Assembly (NCBI GenBank): GCA_902782665.1
Contig: CACZOA010000086.1
Span: 1-41,352 of the forward strand
Direction: 5' to 3'
DNA from: an uncultured Bacteroidales bacterium
Lineage (GTDB): Bacteria > Bacteroidota > Bacteroidia > Bacteroidales > Paludibacteraceae
Length of the DNA stretch: 41,352 bases
Each line of letters opens with the position of its first letter. Within the stretch, counting starts at the first letter, position 1. Under the pieces are notes generated by a model. That model saw only the letters and a list, made by a program, of their open reading frames with translations. It did not search any database and was not told where the DNA came from. The position numbers and the translations under genes were made by a program. Positions 1,004 through 26,995 of this stretch are shown piece by piece.

Positions 1004-1951
1004 TTAATTGATATCCATATAAACGACAACCAATTTTACAGCTTCACTCATACACTCTCCATTCGTCTGCTTTACATAGAAAACATAACCTTCTCCATGT
1101 ACATCCTCTAACTCTTGAAGTTCAAGATCATCATTCATGACATCAACAGATGGAGCTCCAAGTACCCATGGACCGTTTTCTGTTTTCGACCACAACAACT
1201 GATAGCTATCATCGGTCTTTACAACATACTCATCAAAACTAGTGATATAAAAGTTCTTGTTGATTTTTAGGATTGAATCTTCAGTTACTCCACTAAATTC
1301 ACCATAACCATGTGACGACTTTCTTAATGTAGGACCTTCTATCACTAGATATCCTTCCTGTTCTACACTTACCAATTTTGGAGCCTCAACATTACATTCA
1401 TTTGTAAGCCATTGAGATCCATAAGGATTCAAGAAAGAGACGCTACCTTCTTCCTTTTGTGAAAGTTCAAGCACCTGAAGATCTTCCGCATCAGTCAATC
1501 TTTCAGGTCGGATGTAATAAACCTTCGACTCAACACCTTTCACTTTGGATGTCAGATTATAACGACAGCTACAATTTGCAGCTTCACTACCCGCATTGTA
1601 TGCATTAAAGATTATAGTATCACCACTGAATCTGATGTCCATTTTTGGAGTGGCTGCACAGTTTAACACAAGGTTCTCAAGAGTCAACTCAACTTCCCCT
1701 TTCTCCTTGTCAAACTTGTAACCAAGTTTTGTTCCTGCTGGCTGATCACCTTCGCCTGCACGAGTTCCTTCCGTATCATATGGAGAACCCAAACAATCAC
1801 TGGCTCCAACAAACTCAGCAGACAAGTTGGATGTGGTGGTTCCTCCACCGTTGTTTGTAGTGTTGTCATTGTTTTCATCCTCGTCGTCACACGACATGAA
1901 ATTAATTGCGGCTATAGCAAATATGCTACAGAATAATAATGTCTTTTTCAT
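1004..1951 (-). CDS. Surface lipoprotein paralog 1 with extra C-terminal domain
   Basis: This 315-aa protein has a lipoprotein signal peptide ending NFMSC, with Cys21 as the predicted lipidated residue. The next residues are DDEDE and then an Asn/Thr/Gly linker. An acidic run directly after Cys matches the lipoprotein export signal described for surface lipoproteins in Bacteroidota, so it is probably displayed outside the cell. Residues about 41-180 form the domain shared with the three genes upstream (key blocks EFVGASDCL, VLNCAATPKMD, DTIIFN, SKVYYIRPE, VLELSQK) with conserved cysteines. Only this copy continues for about 130 residues into a second, beta-rich looking domain (PKLVSVEQEGYLVIEGP onward). 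It is the last gene of the array and 16 bases separate it from paralog 2. I recognise no named family and cannot state a ligand. Confidence 0.85.
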   Translation of the reverse strand: MKKTLLFCSIFAIAAINFMSCDDEDENNDNTTNNGGGTTTSNLSAEFVGASDCLGSPYDTEGTRAGEGDQPAGTKLGYKFDKEKGEVELTLENLVLNCAATPKMDIRFSGDTIIFNAYNAGSEAANCSCRYNLTSKVKGVESKVYYIRPERLTDAEDLQVLELSQKEEGSVSFLNPYGSQWLTNECNVEAPKLVSVEQEGYLVIEGPTLRKSSHGYGEFSGVTEDSILKINKNFYITSFDEYVVKTDDSYQLLWSKTENGPWVLGAPSVDVMNDDLELQELEDVHGEGYVFYVKQTNGECMSEAVKLVVVYMDIN

Positions 1952-1967
1952 AGGTTAATTTTTAATC

Positions 1968-2507
1968 TCAATAAATAACATTTGAAAAATAAACCACACC
2001 TTCATTCTTTTGTGATAGTTCTAACACTTGAACATCTTCCGCATCAGTCAACTGTTCAGGTCGGATATAATAAACCTTAGACTCTGCACCCTTCACCTTC
2101 GATGTCAAATTATAAATGCAAAGGCATTTTGCCGCCTCTTCAGAATTTGCGTTGTATGGGTTGAAGATTATAGTATCACCACTAAATCTGATGTCCATTT
2201 TTGGAGTGGCAGCACAATTGAGCACTGCGTTCTGAAGATTCAACTCCAATTCTCCCTTTGCAGAATCAAACTTGTAACTAATGGAAGTTTTCTCATCCAA
2301 GTAACTTGCACGTGTAGCGTCATCATTATCCGATGCATCCAAGGCATTTTTTAGACAATCACTGGCACCAACAAATTCAGCCGACAAATTGGATGTTGCA
2401 CCACCTCCGTTGTTTGTTGTGTTGTTGTTTTCGTCCTCGTCGTCACACGACATGAAATTGAATGCGGCTATAGCGAAAAGACTGCAAAATAATAATGTCT
2501 TTTTCAT
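1968..2507 (-). CDS. Surface lipoprotein paralog 2
   Basis: This 179-aa protein starts MKKTLLFCSLFAIAAFNFMSC and continues DDEDENNN, so it has the same lipidated Cys21, acidic export run and Asn/Thr/Gly linker as its neighbours. It consists of the shared domain only and stops shortly after VLELSQKNEGVVYF. Its variable segment after GASDCL reads KNALD...DATRASYLD, matching paralog 4 rather than the adjacent paralogs 1 and 3. Two cysteines in a CLC motif near residue 134 and CAATPK near residue 97 may form disulfides after export. It lies 20 bases downstream of paralog 3 and 16 bases upstream of paralog 1, so all four are probably one transcript. Function unknown. Confidence 0.85.
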   Translation of the reverse strand: MKKTLLFCSLFAIAAFNFMSCDDEDENNNTTNNGGGATSNLSAEFVGASDCLKNALDASDNDDATRASYLDEKTSISYKFDSAKGELELNLQNAVLNCAATPKMDIRFSGDTIIFNPYNANSEEAAKCLCIYNLTSKVKGAESKVYYIRPEQLTDAEDVQVLELSQKNEGVVYFSNVIY

Positions 2508-2528
2508 AGGTCTAATTTTTGTTGTTGA

Positions 2529-3074
2529 TTAATACATAGAGAAATAAACTGTTCCTTCACTCTTTTGTGAAAGTTCTAGCACCTGAACGTTTTCTTCTCC
2601 AGTAGCAAATTCAGGACGAATGTAATAAACCTTCGACTCCGCACCATTCACTTTAGATGAGAGATCGTATGTGCAAATACAATCAGCCTGATCTCCAGTA
2701 TTTGCATCGTACGCATTAAAAATAATTGTGTCTCCATTAAATTTGAAATCCATTTTAGGTATGGCAGCACAATTGAGCACAATCTTTTCAATGTTCAAAA
2801 CAATTTCTCCCTTGGTAGAATCAAACTTGTAACTCATAGCAAGACTATTAGCACCCGCACGAGTTCCTTCCGTATCATATGGAGAACCAAGACAATCACT
2901 GGCACCTACAAACTCACCTGACAAATTGGATGTTGCACCACCTCCGTTGTTTGTTTTGTTGCCTCCATTGTTTGTTGTGTTGTCATTGTTGTTGTTTTCA
3001 TCCTCGTCGTCACACGACATGAAATTGCATGCAGCTATTGCAAACAGGCCGCAAAATAATAATGTCTTTTTCAT
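2529..3074 (-). CDS. Surface lipoprotein paralog 3
   Basis: This 181-aa protein has the signal MKKTLLFCGLFAIAACNFMSC, the acidic DDEDE run and the longest Asn/Thr/Gly linker of the set, in which the TNNGG unit is repeated three times. The variable segment after GASDCL is GSPYDTEGTRAG, nearly identical to paralog 1. The central region diverges from the others: MDFKFNGDTIIFNAYDAN replaces the MDIRFSGDTIIFN version. A CICTY cysteine motif and the SKVYYIRPE and VLELSQK blocks are kept. It is separated from paralog 4 by only 11 bases. The role is unknown; a surface-exposed binding or adhesive protein is an inference from the export signal alone. Confidence 0.84.
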   Translation of the reverse strand: MKKTLLFCGLFAIAACNFMSCDDEDENNNNDNTTNNGGNKTNNGGGATSNLSGEFVGASDCLGSPYDTEGTRAGANSLAMSYKFDSTKGEIVLNIEKIVLNCAAIPKMDFKFNGDTIIFNAYDANTGDQADCICTYDLSSKVNGAESKVYYIRPEFATGEENVQVLELSQKSEGTVYFSMY

Positions 3075-3085
3075 AGGTTTAATTT

Positions 3086-3643
3086 TTAATCACCATTAAT
3101 AACATCTGAGAAATAAACCACCCCTTCATTCTTTTGTGATAGTTCTAGCACTAGAACATCTTCCACATCTGTCAACTTTTCAGGTCGGATATAATAAACC
3201 TTAGACTCCGCTCCCTTTACCTTGGATGTCAGATTGAAAATGCAGAAACATCTTGCCAAATGTTCAGGAGTGGAATTGTATGGATTGAAAATTATAGTAT
3301 CCCCACTGAATCTGATGTCCATTTTTGGAGTAGCGGCACAATTGAGCACCGCATCCTGAAGAATCAATTCCAATTCACCATTGGCAGAATCAAATTTGTA
3401 ACTAATGGAAGATTGTCCATCCATGTAAGTGGCACGTGTAGCATCTTTCAGTTCAATGTCATCCAACGCATTTTTAAGACAGTCACTGGCACCGACAAAT
3501 TCTGCAGACAAGTTGGATGTTGTTGTTCCACCTCCGTTGTTTGTTGTGTTGTCACCATTGTTGTTTTCATCCTCGTCGTCACACGACAAGAAATTGAATG
3601 CCGCTAGAGCAGCAAGACCGAAAAATAAGATTTTTTTTCGCAT
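3086..3643 (-). CDS. Surface lipoprotein paralog 4, first gene of the array
   Basis: This 185-aa protein starts MRKKILFFGLAALAAFNFLSC, the most diverged signal of the four, then DDEDENNNG. The variable segment KNALDDIELKDATRATYMD places it with paralog 2, as do the central MDIRFSGDTIIFNPYN block and the end VLELSQKNEGVVYFSDV. Being first in the operon it sits behind the only plausible promoter (about 3699-3727). The cysteine pattern (CAATPK, CFC) is kept. No enzymatic motif is visible. Duplication order cannot be set by eye, but the different signal peptide suggests it may be closest to the founder gene. Confidence 0.84.
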   Translation of the reverse strand: MRKKILFFGLAALAAFNFLSCDDEDENNNGDNTTNNGGGTTTSNLSAEFVGASDCLKNALDDIELKDATRATYMDGQSSISYKFDSANGELELILQDAVLNCAATPKMDIRFSGDTIIFNPYNSTPEHLARCFCIFNLTSKVKGAESKVYYIRPEKLTDVEDVLVLELSQKNEGVVYFSDVINGD

Positions 3644-17455: not shown

Positions 17456-17929
17456 ATGAATAAAAAGTTATGCTTTATTCTGATGACATCTTTCTTAGGT
17501 GTATTTCAACATTTATCGGCAGATGATAAAGTTGTGGTAACGGACATCAAAGATGAGAAAATTTCATTTCTGCTATCATCGAATCCAGTTGTATCATTCG
17601 ATACTTATTCTCTCATTTTGAAAACAGACGATGAAACTGTATCGTATCCACTTACCGAATATCGGTCTTTCACAATTGATAATAATCCATCAAGTGTAAA
17701 ACAAACTACTCCACTCCTATCTCCTTTGTTTATTATCAACAATGGTTTATTGGAAGCTAGCGGTTTGAATCCAAAATCTGATGTTTCTGTATGCAATATC
17801 TTAGGTATAGTTATAACAAAAGGAATTACCGATGAAAATGGCAACATATCTCTTTCTTTGGACAATCAGAAAAATTCCGTTTGTATAATCAAAACATCTC
17901 ATGGAAGTTTCAAAGTTTGTGTTCGTTAA
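17456..17929 (+). CDS. Small secreted protein with C-terminal sorting-like domain
   Basis: The 157-aa protein has a signal peptide (MNKKLCFILMTSFLGVFQHLSA). Residues 25-80 form a short beta-strand region (VVVTDIKDEKISF...YSLILKT...SYPLTEYRSFTID) of the kind often found at the start of secreted Bacteroidales proteins. The last 50 residues (DVSVCNILGIVITKGITD...ISLSLDNQ...VCIIKTSHGSFKVCVR) follow the pattern of T9SS C-terminal domains: a strand with a Gly, a G...L turn and a final basic strand. It is the first gene of the operon with the flavin-acceptor candidate and apbE, 32 bases before the former. It could be an accessory or anchoring factor for that protein; this is inference from order. 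Confidence 0.7.
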   Translation: MNKKLCFILMTSFLGVFQHLSADDKVVVTDIKDEKISFLLSSNPVVSFDTYSLILKTDDETVSYPLTEYRSFTIDNNPSSVKQTTPLLSPLFIINNGLLEASGLNPKSDVSVCNILGIVITKGITDENGNISLSLDNQKNSVCIIKTSHGSFKVCVR

Positions 17930-17961
17930 CATTCTAGTTGTAGATTAAAAAAGTATTAAAA

Positions 17962-19698
17962 ATGAAAAAAAATTTCACACTTGCAGTATTGTTAGTCTTG
18001 GCAAGTACAATTCAAGCACAGAACATTCGTGTCAATCTTAACGACGGTACAAATGTTGTTTACAACAAAGACTCGGTCTCTAGCATAGAATTTAACCCTG
18101 CTGCATATTCAGGGAAAATGTATTATGCGACTACAGACATGACTTTTGCAGAATTTTTCGAAGGAGAACTTCATACACCTGCTGAAGCCCTTATCGCAGA
18201 TGGTGTTGATGTTTTTACATCAGCGACCAGTGGAAAAGCATCACGTTTTTCTTCTTGTGTCATATCTAAAGAAGGAAACCAGATTCTTGGTGTTAAGGCA
18301 GTTAGTGTCAGTATGACTGAGGATGTGTACAATAAACTTACTGATGAACAAAAGGCAAGATTCACATTCGTTGAAGATTCTGTTTTTGCCTCTTCAAAAC
18401 AACTACTTTCCAACGGTTCATTCAGTGCCTACACTGCGGCACCTGTTGTGATGGAATGTTCATCAGTCAACCTATCTTCTGGAACTTCCGCCAATTGGGG
18501 CAATTATGTCATTTCTCTTGGCATTGATCGCACTGCTATTCCTTCTGCTGACCTGCAGGGAGCCGTCATCACAACCACAAGCGGACAGAAATTCGCACTC
18601 ACTCCACTCAATAATCTATGGCTCAACACGAGTGAACTCGCATTCAGCGTAAACTACTTCACCGAGCCTCATGGCAACCATCCTGCTTTTACTCATACCG
18701 CTGGTTTACAGGGAAAAACAATATCAAATATCACTTACTACCTTAAAGGTAAAGACAATGTATCCATCCCTTGCAACGTGTATGTAAAACAACAGACTGC
18801 CGCATCTGTTTCTTTGGACGGAGCCGCTGTCGCAGGAGTAAATCCGATTGTCAACTTGTTGATGAAAGATATACCTTCTGATGCCAACTACACATTGGCA
18901 AGCGTAAAGAAAGGTTCTGGCAGATCAGCAAAACTACTTGATGCGGATAAATATACTTATTCAGACGGAGTTCTCAACATACTTGATACAGCAGCTGTTG
19001 GTGACAACTATAATGTGATCTTCAATTCAGACAAGTATGTATCTATAGGCTCTAGCATCAAATTTGGCTCTGACATTCTGCCAACAAAGTTACAGAATAA
19101 GCTGGCCGGCACATACGTCGAACTATTTTCAGAAGAAGGAATTTTGGCATCGAAATGGGACAGTTTATGGATTGCTGAATGTTCAAAATATGTAGGTGAG
19201 GAAAATGCAGACTCTTCTGCTAATATGCTAAAATATTCTATGCTTGGCACACTGACTGGAGAAGAAGCTACAGCAAAGTTTGGAGACGGAAGCAATGGAT
19301 TCGCCCCAGATATTCAGTTTTCTTGTCATTTCTTGCACTCTGTTTCTAAATTTGTTTTTGATGGATGTACTATCAAAGGATTGGACTCAGATGGAAAAGA
19401 AGTGTTTGCACACAAATATGTAAAGGTCGGATACGATTCAGTGCTTGATTTCCATATATATAAAAGCACAGATGACAATGAAGATGAATTCAAATTCTTT
19501 GCCTTACGTTCAGATAATCCATTTGATACTTATCATATTGAGTTCCGTTATGGCAGTAAGGAAGAAGGAATTCTTGATTACTTCTCTGGAAAATATGCAT
19601 ACTGGATGGCAGCCGGAGTATTGGAAAATGACGATAACCAGTGTGAAAAATCAATTCGTCTATTTGTAAAAGAAAATCTTGAACCAAGAGTAGAATGA
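17962..19698 (+). CDS. Secreted protein with FMN-attachment-like motif, likely ApbE substrate
   Basis: The 578-aa protein has a signal peptide (MKKNFTLAVLLVLASTIQAQ) and an N-terminal strand region (NIRVNLNDGTNVVYNKDSV). At 83-89 it reads DVFTSAT, matching the Dxx(t/s)(g/s)AT pattern at which ApbE attaches FMN through a phosphoester; Thr89 would be the acceptor. The surrounding FAEFFEGEL...DVFTSATSGK resembles, from memory, the Y.DFY..EL...DAVTSAT start of Firmicutes secreted proteins annotated as Tp47 domain C-like. The remaining 450 residues appear to be beta-rich domains without membrane segments. The gene overlaps apbE by 4 bases (ATGA), which strongly ties the two. No sorting domain is obvious at the end. 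It could be an extracellular redox flavoprotein; the reaction is unknown. Confidence 0.75.
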   Translation: MKKNFTLAVLLVLASTIQAQNIRVNLNDGTNVVYNKDSVSSIEFNPAAYSGKMYYATTDMTFAEFFEGELHTPAEALIADGVDVFTSATSGKASRFSSCVISKEGNQILGVKAVSVSMTEDVYNKLTDEQKARFTFVEDSVFASSKQLLSNGSFSAYTAAPVVMECSSVNLSSGTSANWGNYVISLGIDRTAIPSADLQGAVITTTSGQKFALTPLNNLWLNTSELAFSVNYFTEPHGNHPAFTHTAGLQGKTISNITYYLKGKDNVSIPCNVYVKQQTAASVSLDGAAVAGVNPIVNLLMKDIPSDANYTLASVKKGSGRSAKLLDADKYTYSDGVLNILDTAAVGDNYNVIFNSDKYVSIGSSIKFGSDILPTKLQNKLAGTYVELFSEEGILASKWDSLWIAECSKYVGEENADSSANMLKYSMLGTLTGEEATAKFGDGSNGFAPDIQFSCHFLHSVSKFVFDGCTIKGLDSDGKEVFAHKYVKVGYDSVLDFHIYKSTDDNEDEFKFFALRSDNPFDTYHIEFRYGSKEEGILDYFSGKYAYWMAAGVLENDDNQCEKSIRLFVKENLEPRVE

Positions 19699-20729
19699 AA
19701 AGCAACAGCATATTTTGGTTTGTTTTTGTATCTATCTTGAACACGATTGTCGTCCATGCGCATACTTATCAAGCATGTACTTTTGAAGGAGATGTGTTCA
19801 ACACTACATATCACATCACATACGAGGATATACAAAGGGACAAAAGAAAAAATGAGAATTGGCATGACAGCATCAAAAAGCTTTTCAAAGACTTTGACAA
19901 TTCATTGTCAATGTTCAATCCAGAGTCTATAATATCCGCAATGAACAACAATAGTCAAGAAGCGAAAGCGAACCATTATGTGAAGACTGTCATTGAGAAA
20001 TCTATAGATATTTCTAAACAAACGTCAGGAGCTTTTGATATAACCGTTGCCCCACTCGTCAACCTGTGGGGCTTCGGTTTCAAAAACAAAGAGAATGTTA
20101 CACCTGAGGCTGTAGACAGCATTTTGCAGTTTGTGGGATGTAATAAAATCAGACTTGACAGAAAAGGAAGACTTCATAAAAAAGATCCACGCATACAACT
20201 TGACGCTTCAAGTATTGCCAAAGGATATATGTGTGATATTGTCGGGGATTGGCTAAAAAGTAAAGGTGTGGTGAACTACATGGTGGAAATTGGAGGTGAG
20301 ATTGCACTGCATGGCAACAATCCCAAAGGAACAGCATGGAAAGTTGGAATAAATGTTCCGGAAGAAGACTACTTACAACGTATAAATGGCATAGGAGGCA
20401 TTCTTAAATTGAACGATGGAGGTATCGCGACAAGTGGAAATTACCGTAATTTCTACTATCACGACGGGAAACGTTATGCTCACACAATAGATCCGACAAC
20501 TGGTTATCCTGTACAAAAAGACATACTATCCAGCACTGTCATTGCTCCTGATTGCATCACAGCAGACGCTTACGCCACAGCGTTTATGGTTATGGGATAC
20601 GAACGCGCATTTGATTTACTCGATAAAAATCCATCAATCTTGGCCTACTTCATAATCACAGACGAAAATTCGGAAAATGGATATAAAGTCATATTTAGTG
20701 AAGGGCTGAAAAAAGTATTAGACAAATGA
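19695..20729 (+). CDS. apbE: FAD:protein FMN transferase ApbE
   Basis: ApbE moves FMN from FAD onto a Thr of exported target proteins, using magnesium, outside the cytoplasmic membrane. The 344-aa product has a signal sequence of about 22 residues (ending VVHA). Family motifs are present: a GDVFNTTYHITY start, FDITVAPLVNLWGFG, LDASSIAKGYMCD (flavin-binding, SxAKG), NYMVEIGGEIALHG, HTIDPTTGYP and the metal-site ADAYATAFMVMG. Length is normal for the family. The start codon lies inside the stop of the upstream gene, so translation is probably coupled, and that gene carries a DVFTSAT acceptor-like site. No Rnf or Nqr genes are nearby, which would be the usual clients. Confidence 0.93.
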   Translation: MKSNSIFWFVFVSILNTIVVHAHTYQACTFEGDVFNTTYHITYEDIQRDKRKNENWHDSIKKLFKDFDNSLSMFNPESIISAMNNNSQEAKANHYVKTVIEKSIDISKQTSGAFDITVAPLVNLWGFGFKNKENVTPEAVDSILQFVGCNKIRLDRKGRLHKKDPRIQLDASSIAKGYMCDIVGDWLKSKGVVNYMVEIGGEIALHGNNPKGTAWKVGINVPEEDYLQRINGIGGILKLNDGGIATSGNYRNFYYHDGKRYAHTIDPTTGYPVQKDILSSTVIAPDCITADAYATAFMVMGYERAFDLLDKNPSILAYFIITDENSENGYKVIFSEGLKKVLDK

Positions 20730-25603: not shown

Positions 25604-26995
25604 TTACTCGAATGCACCCATTCTTAGCATGCTAACCTCACGCTCTGTAAGGAATCTCCACTCGCCTCTCTTCAATCCCTTCTTTGTCAAACCTGCGAAG
25701 AATACACGGTCAAGACGCATTACACGGTAGCCAAGTTTGTCGAAAATACGACGAACGATACGGTTTCTACCTGAGTGGATCTCGATACCGATCTTCTTGT
25801 GGTCTGCATCGTCTACGTAGCTGATCTCATCTGGCTTGATTGGACCATCCTCCAAGTCGATACCAGCAGCGATTGTTGCCATATCCTCCTCAGTAAGCTC
25901 CTTGTTTAGAGTAACCTGATAGATCTTCTTCTTGTTGTACATTGGGTGAGTCAACTTAGAAGCCAAGTCACCGTCGTTAGTCAATAGAAGAACACCTGTA
26001 GTTGGCTTATCAAGACGTCCTACTGGATAGATACGCTCCTTACATGCTCTCTCAACAAGCTTCATAACAGTAAGTTTTGCGTTTGGATCATCTGTAGATG
26101 TAACGCAACCCTTTGGCTTGTTCAAAAGGATGTAAACCAACTTATCTGGAGCAACAAGCTGATCTCCGATCAACACCTTGTCACCACGCTTGATCTTTGT
26201 TCCCAACTCAGTGATTGGAGTACCGTTTACTGATACAGCACCAGCCTGGATCAACTCATCAGCCTCACGACGTGAGCAAACTCCTGCATTAGCAAGATAC
26301 TTGTTCAAACGGATATCTTCATTTGGATCCACCATAACAGATTTATATTCAATCTGACGATGTCCAATATTTCCTTGCTTACGTTTGTTCTGTGGACGTC
26401 CACCACCACGGTTGTTATTGTTGTTGTAGCCACCGCCACGGTTGTTGTTGTAACCGCCGCCATTGTTGTTGTAGCCACCGCCACGGTTGTTGTTGTAACC
26501 ACCGCCACGATTGTTATTGTAGCCACCACCACGATTGTTGTTGTAGCCGCCACCACGGTTGTTGTTGTAACCACCACGGTTGTTATTGTAGCCACCACCA
26601 CGGTTGTTGTTGTAGCCGCCATCGTTGTTGTAACCACCATCGCCATTGTTGTCGCGATTGTAGCCACCGTTATAGCCTCCGTTGTAACCGCCGTCACCAT
26701 TGTCACGATTGTAGCCACGGTTGTTGTTGTAGTAGCCACCACCACGGTTATTGTTGTAACCGCCATCGTTGTTGTAACCACGGTTGTTGTAACCTCCATC
26801 ATTGTTGTAGCCACGGTTGTAGCCACCTCCGTTCTGCTCGCCTACTGGAACACGTGTATCACCTACTCTTCTTCTTGGTGCACGCTTCAAATGGTTGTCT
26901 GCAGTGAAATTAGGGTTAAAACTTCTTCTTTCACGCTGTTCTGCACCGGAATTTCTCTCGAAATCTTGTTGCATTTCGTCATCAAATGGTTTCAT
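25604..26995 (-). CDS. rluB: RluB/RsuA-family pseudouridine synthase with Gly/Tyr/Asn/Arg-rich N-terminal tail
   Basis: The enzyme converts a specific uridine in rRNA to pseudouridine. Of 463 residues, the last 240 are a standard RluB-like enzyme: S4 RNA-binding domain at about 228-275 (RLNKYLANAGVCSRREADEL), then LLNKPKGCVTS, and the catalytic GRLDKPTTGVLLLTNDG with Asp329, and GRNRIVRRIFDKLGY near the end. Residues 50-200 are a low-complexity run of GGYNNNRG units, about 25 copies. Such RG/Y-rich tails bind RNA and can drive condensates. Tails of this kind occur in Bacteroidota homologs, but the length here is striking. The repeat-coding DNA is itself tandemly repeated and may vary in copy number. 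It lies downstream of the DUF349 gene with an intercistronic hairpin between. Confidence 0.92.
   Translation of the reverse strand: MKPFDDEMQQDFERNSGAEQRERRSFNPNFTADNHLKRAPRRRVGDTRVPVGEQNGGGYNRGYNNDGGYNNRGYNNDGGYNNNRGGGYYNNNRGYNRDNGDGGYNGGYNGGYNRDNNGDGGYNNDGGYNNNRGGGYNNNRGGYNNNRGGGYNNNRGGGYNNNRGGGYNNNRGGGYNNNGGGYNNNRGGGYNNNNNRGGGRPQNKRKQGNIGHRQIEYKSVMVDPNEDIRLNKYLANAGVCSRREADELIQAGAVSVNGTPITELGTKIKRGDKVLIGDQLVAPDKLVYILLNKPKGCVTSTDDPNAKLTVMKLVERACKERIYPVGRLDKPTTGVLLLTNDGDLASKLTHPMYNKKKIYQVTLNKELTEEDMATIAAGIDLEDGPIKPDEISYVDDADHKKIGIEIHSGRNRIVRRIFDKLGYRVMRLDRVFFAGLTKKGLKRGEWRFLTEREVSMLRMGAFE
26400..26820 (-). repeat. In-gene tandem repeat coding GGYNNNRG units
   Basis: The minus strand repeats GGC TAC AAC AAC AAC CGT GGT-type units of 18-27 bases, with synonymous changes (GGT/GGC, AAT/AAC). 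The long plus-strand frames seen here (Val/Thr- or Cys/His-rich) are shadows of this repeat. Confidence 0.9.

Follow-up and report, generated by a model that had tools for sequence, protein, structure and literature searches.

In the available text of two papers (PMC8238504, PMC11334425), the listed substrates of the FAD:protein FMN transferase ApbE are FMN_bind, NqrB/RnfD, DUF2271, DUF3570, Flavodoxin_4, and FMN reductase. According to passages of the papers cited here, the canonical ApbE motif has a Gly (PMC12052999), this Gly is part of the flavinylation motif (PMC10722498), and a motif form that allows Ser for Gly, D(g/s)x(s/t)(s/g)AS, is flavinylated in Leptomonas (PMC8065229). Replacement of Gly by Ala and of Ala by Val left flavinylation at a lower level (about 50%) in one model (PMC12052999, in part), and thus such variants need not abolish the modification. 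NapH-like and multi-flavinylated gene clusters are described in sections of a 2021 survey (PMC8238504).

We analyzed a contig of 41,352 nucleotides (the window) from an uncultured Bacteroidales bacterium of gut or rumen. Three genes on the plus strand encode a secreted small protein of 157 aa (17456..17929; aligned in eight loci), a secreted candidate flavoprotein of 578 aa, the putative ApbE acceptor (17962..19698), and a secreted ApbE without a lipobox (19695..20729). The 578-aa ORF and apbE share a 4-base ATGA overlap. The initial annotation had described translational coupling of ApbE to a secreted protein of 578 aa that contains DVFTSAT (residues 83–89; 18208..18228), and all of these coordinates hold. 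Like the listed substrates, the 578-aa protein is linked to apbE, is predicted to be exported, and carries a D-x-x-[S/T]-x-A-T motif; unlike them, it has no significant Pfam match, has Ser in place of Gly, and has an extra C-terminal domain. We estimate the probability that Thr89, the last residue of DVFTSAT, is the flavinylation acceptor at about 0.6.

The operon ApbE matched PF02424 over the cut-off (E=1.2e-85, 287.8 bits) at profile positions 1–265 of 266, covering the full domain. Asp291 and Thr295 were invariant in seven rows, and their spacing equals that of the Mg-site residues Asp297 and Thr301 of P. stutzeri ApbE (PMC5655446, in part), a correspondence made by eye. A Pfam scan of 16 window proteins gave no match to the FMN_bind, Rnf, or Nqr families, in agreement with the earlier remark that no Rnf or Nqr genes are nearby. 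Outside the window's contig, this genome has an Nqr locus, whose ORFs were named from their sequence similarity to NqrB and NqrC and which contains the genome's one FMN_bind match. A second apbE, whose product has a lipobox, is also on a contig other than that of the operon. Elsewhere in the window, four adjoining minus-strand ORFs (1004–3643) encode lipoproteins with closely similar signal peptides, likely a tandem duplication. Another ORF (25604–26995) has a long GYNNNRGG-type repeat, variable in length among relatives, ahead of a domain that we take to resemble pseudouridine synthase.

Relatives were first drawn from eight contigs (L001–L008). Six of these (L001–L005 and L007) carry all three genes of the operon in order; L006 ends within apbE, with the first part present, and L008 has the last domain of the 578-aa protein alone. 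Of 200 genomes searched in the family of the window, 11, belonging to three genera, encode the 578-aa protein, and apbE directly followed its gene in all 11 (judged by length, five carriers are the same contigs as L001–L005, and G515 is counted with a two-frame gene). In L022 and L038 (G515), the 578-aa gene is in two overlapping frames, reflecting either a sequencing error or a real frameshift. Among 393 genomes of the order, only the window's own matched. When 61 relatives were searched for ApbE, all seven carriers had two matches and all three non-carrying congeners, which are 91, 78, and 64% complete, had one. Outside the carriers, a second full-length ApbE was found only in G020, those of G009 and G401 being split or partial. 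A quick 47-row tree placed the 12 operon ApbEs in a single clade (SH-aLRT 100%), separate from 26 other Bacteroidales and nine Lachnospiraceae-like ApbEs. Their signal peptides look plain by eye, whereas a lipobox or an N-terminal membrane segment is present in many of the Bacteroidales ApbEs outside the clade. Motif, linkage, co-occurrence, and clade support all uphold the proposal that the 578-aa protein and a dedicated ApbE belong together as a conserved unit.

We also searched for FMN_bind, the commonest kind of ApbE acceptor, in 14 genomes, namely 13 carriers (G588 and G589 included) and G468. Pfam PF04205 matched one to three times in each genome, never near the operon, and the operon's contig carried a match in G415 alone, about 54 kb away. 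G415, G478, G500, and G515 have two matches each on different contigs, and carriers of genus g1 have one. PF04205 was used instead of a profile built from Lachnospiraceae-like loci, which is weak on Bacteroidales NqrC; the blank of that profile in seven Bacteroidales loci therefore says little.

The first gene of the operon gave a different picture. The 157-aa protein matched nothing over the cut-off in Pfam or NCBIfam, and its homologs are located just upstream of other, unrelated secreted proteins. Several of these secreted proteins have their N-terminus in common with the 578-aa protein, over the first 45 residues of the latter. A homolog of about 160 aa directly upstream of a secreted protein was found in L028, L029, L032, L033, L034, and L200. 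L041 joins this set by size and position. The small proteins of L200, which is homologous to the 157-aa protein, and of L041 matched Por_Secre_tail. The window genome has 60 matches to Por_Secre_tail (PF18962) at E<=0.001, among which the 157-aa protein is not found; this number makes type IX secretion very likely in the organism. We ruled out the 157-aa protein as a component of a flavin system, because its homologs precede unrelated secreted proteins, and it looks like a generic small partner. The initial annotation had tentatively joined all three genes into one extracellular flavin system. The first gene is not specific to flavinylation and drops out of this grouping; the term extracellular was not borne out either, as the 578-aa protein has a plain signal peptide by inspection but neither a lipobox nor a recognised sorting tail.

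Recurrence of the 157-aa gene and of the first 45 residues with unrelated cargo would also fit an ordinary secreted cargo pair that has apbE as a chance neighbour. We regard this as the least probable explanation, since it is contradicted by the conserved linkage, with apbE after the 578-aa gene in every carrier across three genera, and the operon ApbEs form a single distinct clade.

We examined the domain composition of the 578-aa protein. It had no family match in Pfam or NCBIfam, and neither PDB nor Pfam gave a credible hit to the single sequence or to the 8-row alignment. A profile check for an FMN-binding domain in 17962–19698, suggested earlier, was negative: PF04205 had no match at E<=1 in this protein and none at E<=10 in eight orthologs. 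Homology to FMN_bind was likewise unsupported by hhalign (E 0.019, probability 2.4%), which aligned only eight motif columns with an FMN_bind set that had been picked by its motif. The accompanying guess of a Tp47-like domain proved correct. An extended profile (A6) matched Treponema Tp47 (47 kDa antigen, PDB 1O75) with an overall E of 1.2e-6, and the first half of the protein is a distant relative of Tp47 domain a (PF14889). The best single stretch (i-E 7.6e-4) was the motif-containing start, in which DVFTSAT was aligned to DAVSRAT of Tp47; unlike the 578-aa protein, Tp47 has Arg at motif position 5. PF14889 itself was sub-threshold in two distant relatives and absent from the window protein. 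Residues 48–374 (18103..19083) comprise the Tp47-domain-a-like region and, after it, an Ig-like stretch. A stand-alone copy of this region, 44% identical, is present in G468, where the available 13 kb downstream contain no apbE and the contig ends upstream. The last 200 residues occur alone in G454 and L008, and the 578-aa protein therefore seems to be made of two fused modules. In L048, a stand-alone acceptor-domain protein is next to a DUF6055/DUF4859 protein. Scans of viral contigs found no relatives of the 578-aa protein. AlphaFold2 modelling of the whole protein with eight rows was poor (pLDDT 45.3), with residues 1–185 below pLDDT 50.

DVFTSAT was the sole match to D..[ST][GS]A[ST] in the 11,894 aa of the 31 window ORFs picked as likely genes, and such a match appeared in 1.6% of shuffles of the 578-aa protein. 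It contains the Asp, the Ser/Thr at position 4, the Ala at position 6, and the Thr/Ser at position 7 of the acceptor motif; the canonical Gly at position 5 is replaced by Ser. The D, T, S, A, and T were invariant in all eight aligned orthologs, and D-x-x-T-S-A-T is also kept in the stand-alone copy. Across 27 distant rows, the Thr was among just three invariant columns and the Asp was present in 26. Position 5 was Ser in 46 and Thr in six of the 52 domains of the tree set, which left out 17 rows (16 fragments shorter than 250 aa and the near-copy L002), some with R, A, or G at this position. FMN_bind sites in the same Lachnospiraceae-like clusters had Gly at position 5 in 113 of 129 rows, although Gly is favoured by construction in a profile built from Gly-bearing sites; the other 16 FMN_bind-like rows had Arg, Ser, His, Lys, or Thr.

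These data bear on two readings. Thr89 is proposed as the acceptor because of the dedicated linkage, the lack of FMN_bind nearby, and the conservation of Asp, Ala, and Thr; the Leptomonas motif form with Ser is a further point in favour. Points against are the stand-alone G468 copy with no apbE downstream and the partial completeness of the congeners that have one ApbE. Alternatively, the TSAT segment may be structural and unflavinylated, the 578-aa protein being a redox partner or substrate-binding component of flavin systems and ApbE modifying something encoded elsewhere. A structural role is suggested by distant relatives carrying SSVT, SSPT, SSSN, or SSSK and by DAVSRAT in Tp47; the Thr is kept even where the motif Ala is Val or Pro, and none of the 52 full-length domains has Gly at position 5. 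This alternative is possible but the less probable of the two, as the second ApbE of these Bacteroidales co-occurs with the 578-aa gene and is adjacent or translationally coupled to it, no FMN_bind gene is near the operon in the 13 carriers, and the window genome keeps another ApbE, with its one FMN_bind in the Nqr locus.

Distant relatives were found in a Lachnospiraceae-like family, that of G587, the genome to which L008 belongs. The profile of residues 48–374 matched 22 of 250 genomes and A6 matched 38 of 397, the two samples overlapping. From 37 of the 38 matching genomes, 40 loci were obtained, with two loci each in G599, G677, and G976 and short contigs in L084, L173, and L180; G914, a contig-edge fragment, was left out. 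An FMN_bind-like domain was fused or within the fetched stretch in 37 of the 40 loci, a raw count from a profile built from those same loci and checked against Pfam on four proteins. The nearness of distant homologs to FMN_bind and apbE counts in favour of the flavinylation reading, but these FMN_bind acceptors alone could explain the apbE genes of the distant loci, in line with a structural role of the TSAT segment. apbE was located within 8 kb in 23 of the 40 loci, on the same strand in 22 of the 23. The L163 cluster begins with apbE and two FMN_bind genes (the first product with four domains, the second small), continues with a 4Fe-4S membrane protein, NusG_II, and Hpre_diP_synt_I, and ends with the Tp47-like gene. 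The distant homologs thus reside, as in the surveyed clusters (PMC8238504, in part), beside apbE, FMN_bind, 4Fe-4S membrane, NusG_II, and Hpre_diP_synt_I genes, and their clusters appear to be NapH-like; the Bacteroidales operon differs in having apbE alone beside the acceptor candidate.

The initial annotation had treated the system as one of Bacteroidales, and this restriction is lifted, because the domain is also found in flavinylation clusters of the Lachnospiraceae-like family. It had also named loss of the motif in apbE-linked homologs as evidence against flavinylation: the orthologs keep the motif, whereas the distant apbE-linked homolog of L091 is degenerate. A linked apbE was present in 22 of 31 loci with an intact motif versus one of nine with a degenerate motif (Fisher p=0.002). 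We dropped this association as evidence, since the motif changed only twice on the tree and FMN_bind neighbours confound it. In L083, L089, L091, L094, and L161, the Tp47-like gene is followed by a gene for a membrane protein of 350–420 aa, which ends in FMN_bind (Pfam) in L083 and L094. The Tp47-like motif is degenerate in four of these five loci, and three of the five have no apbE in the fetched stretch. As the operon ApbEs do not group with the Lachnospiraceae-like ApbEs, two ApbE lineages seem to have acquired a linkage to the Tp47-like domain.

The C-terminal domain (residues 378–578; 19093..19695) was modelled with a pLDDT of 62.7. Among the folds listed, the best matches were ZinT/YodA and the AdcA C-terminal domain, with modest scores near those of unrelated folds; the rows below AdcA in the Foldseek list were mostly PR-10/START-like folds, and in a further fold comparison profilins tied with the lowest ZinT rows. 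Sequence-only tests for ZinT (PF09223) were weak. When aligned weakly by hmmsearch with the ZinT domain of one AdcA, the sequence lacked His at two of the three positions of the zinc-binding His triad, as placed by eye. From the model, a ZinT-like calycin domain is possible for the last 200 residues. No related paper on ApbE and ZinT together was found in the open-licence PMC text available.

Resemblance to ZinT zinc carriers in this model would also fit a quite different function, in which the operon ApbE hydrolyses free FAD to FMN instead of flavinylating a protein, and the 578-aa protein, as a scavenger in the periplasm, binds flavin or metal. Treponema TP0796 (Ftp) is described as a bimetal-dependent FAD pyrophosphatase in a title in the reference list of PMC5956850. 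We consider this function very unlikely, as it leaves the conserved flavinylation-like motif unexplained.

Returning to Thr89 as the acceptor, we propose that the two downstream genes encode a pair dedicated to flavinylation. ApbE and its 578-aa partner would both be exported via their signal peptides, and in the periplasm ApbE would move FMN from FAD to Thr89 of DVFTSAT in the Tp47-domain-a-like region. The product would be a soluble flavoprotein that transports electrons or passes them on, perhaps to something carried by the C-terminal, possibly ZinT-like, domain. The Tp47-domain-a-like region is probably an acceptor class outside the ApbE substrates listed in the available text of PMC8238504 and PMC11334425. 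No paper linking Tp47 with ApbE or FMN-binding, or PBP-Tp47, was found in open-licence PMC, and in the main text as available "PBP-Tp47" is absent from PMC8238504 and "Tp47" from PMC11334425.

An additional class of acceptor with no sequence relationship to FMN_bind would lengthen the list of ApbE substrates, and the operon would offer a simple two-gene system for the tolerance of ApbE to Ser at the Gly position. A broader proposal, which we put forward as speculative and rather unlikely, is that Tp47 domain a is an unlisted ApbE-flavinylated class, present in Bacteroidales with their own recruited ApbE and in electron-transfer clusters of Lachnospiraceae, and that Tp47 descends, in degenerate form, from an extracytosolic protein of a flavin system. 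If so, Tp47, a syphilis antigen classed as an unusual penicillin-binding protein, would gain a flavin-system ancestry, and its puzzling domain would gain a redox context.
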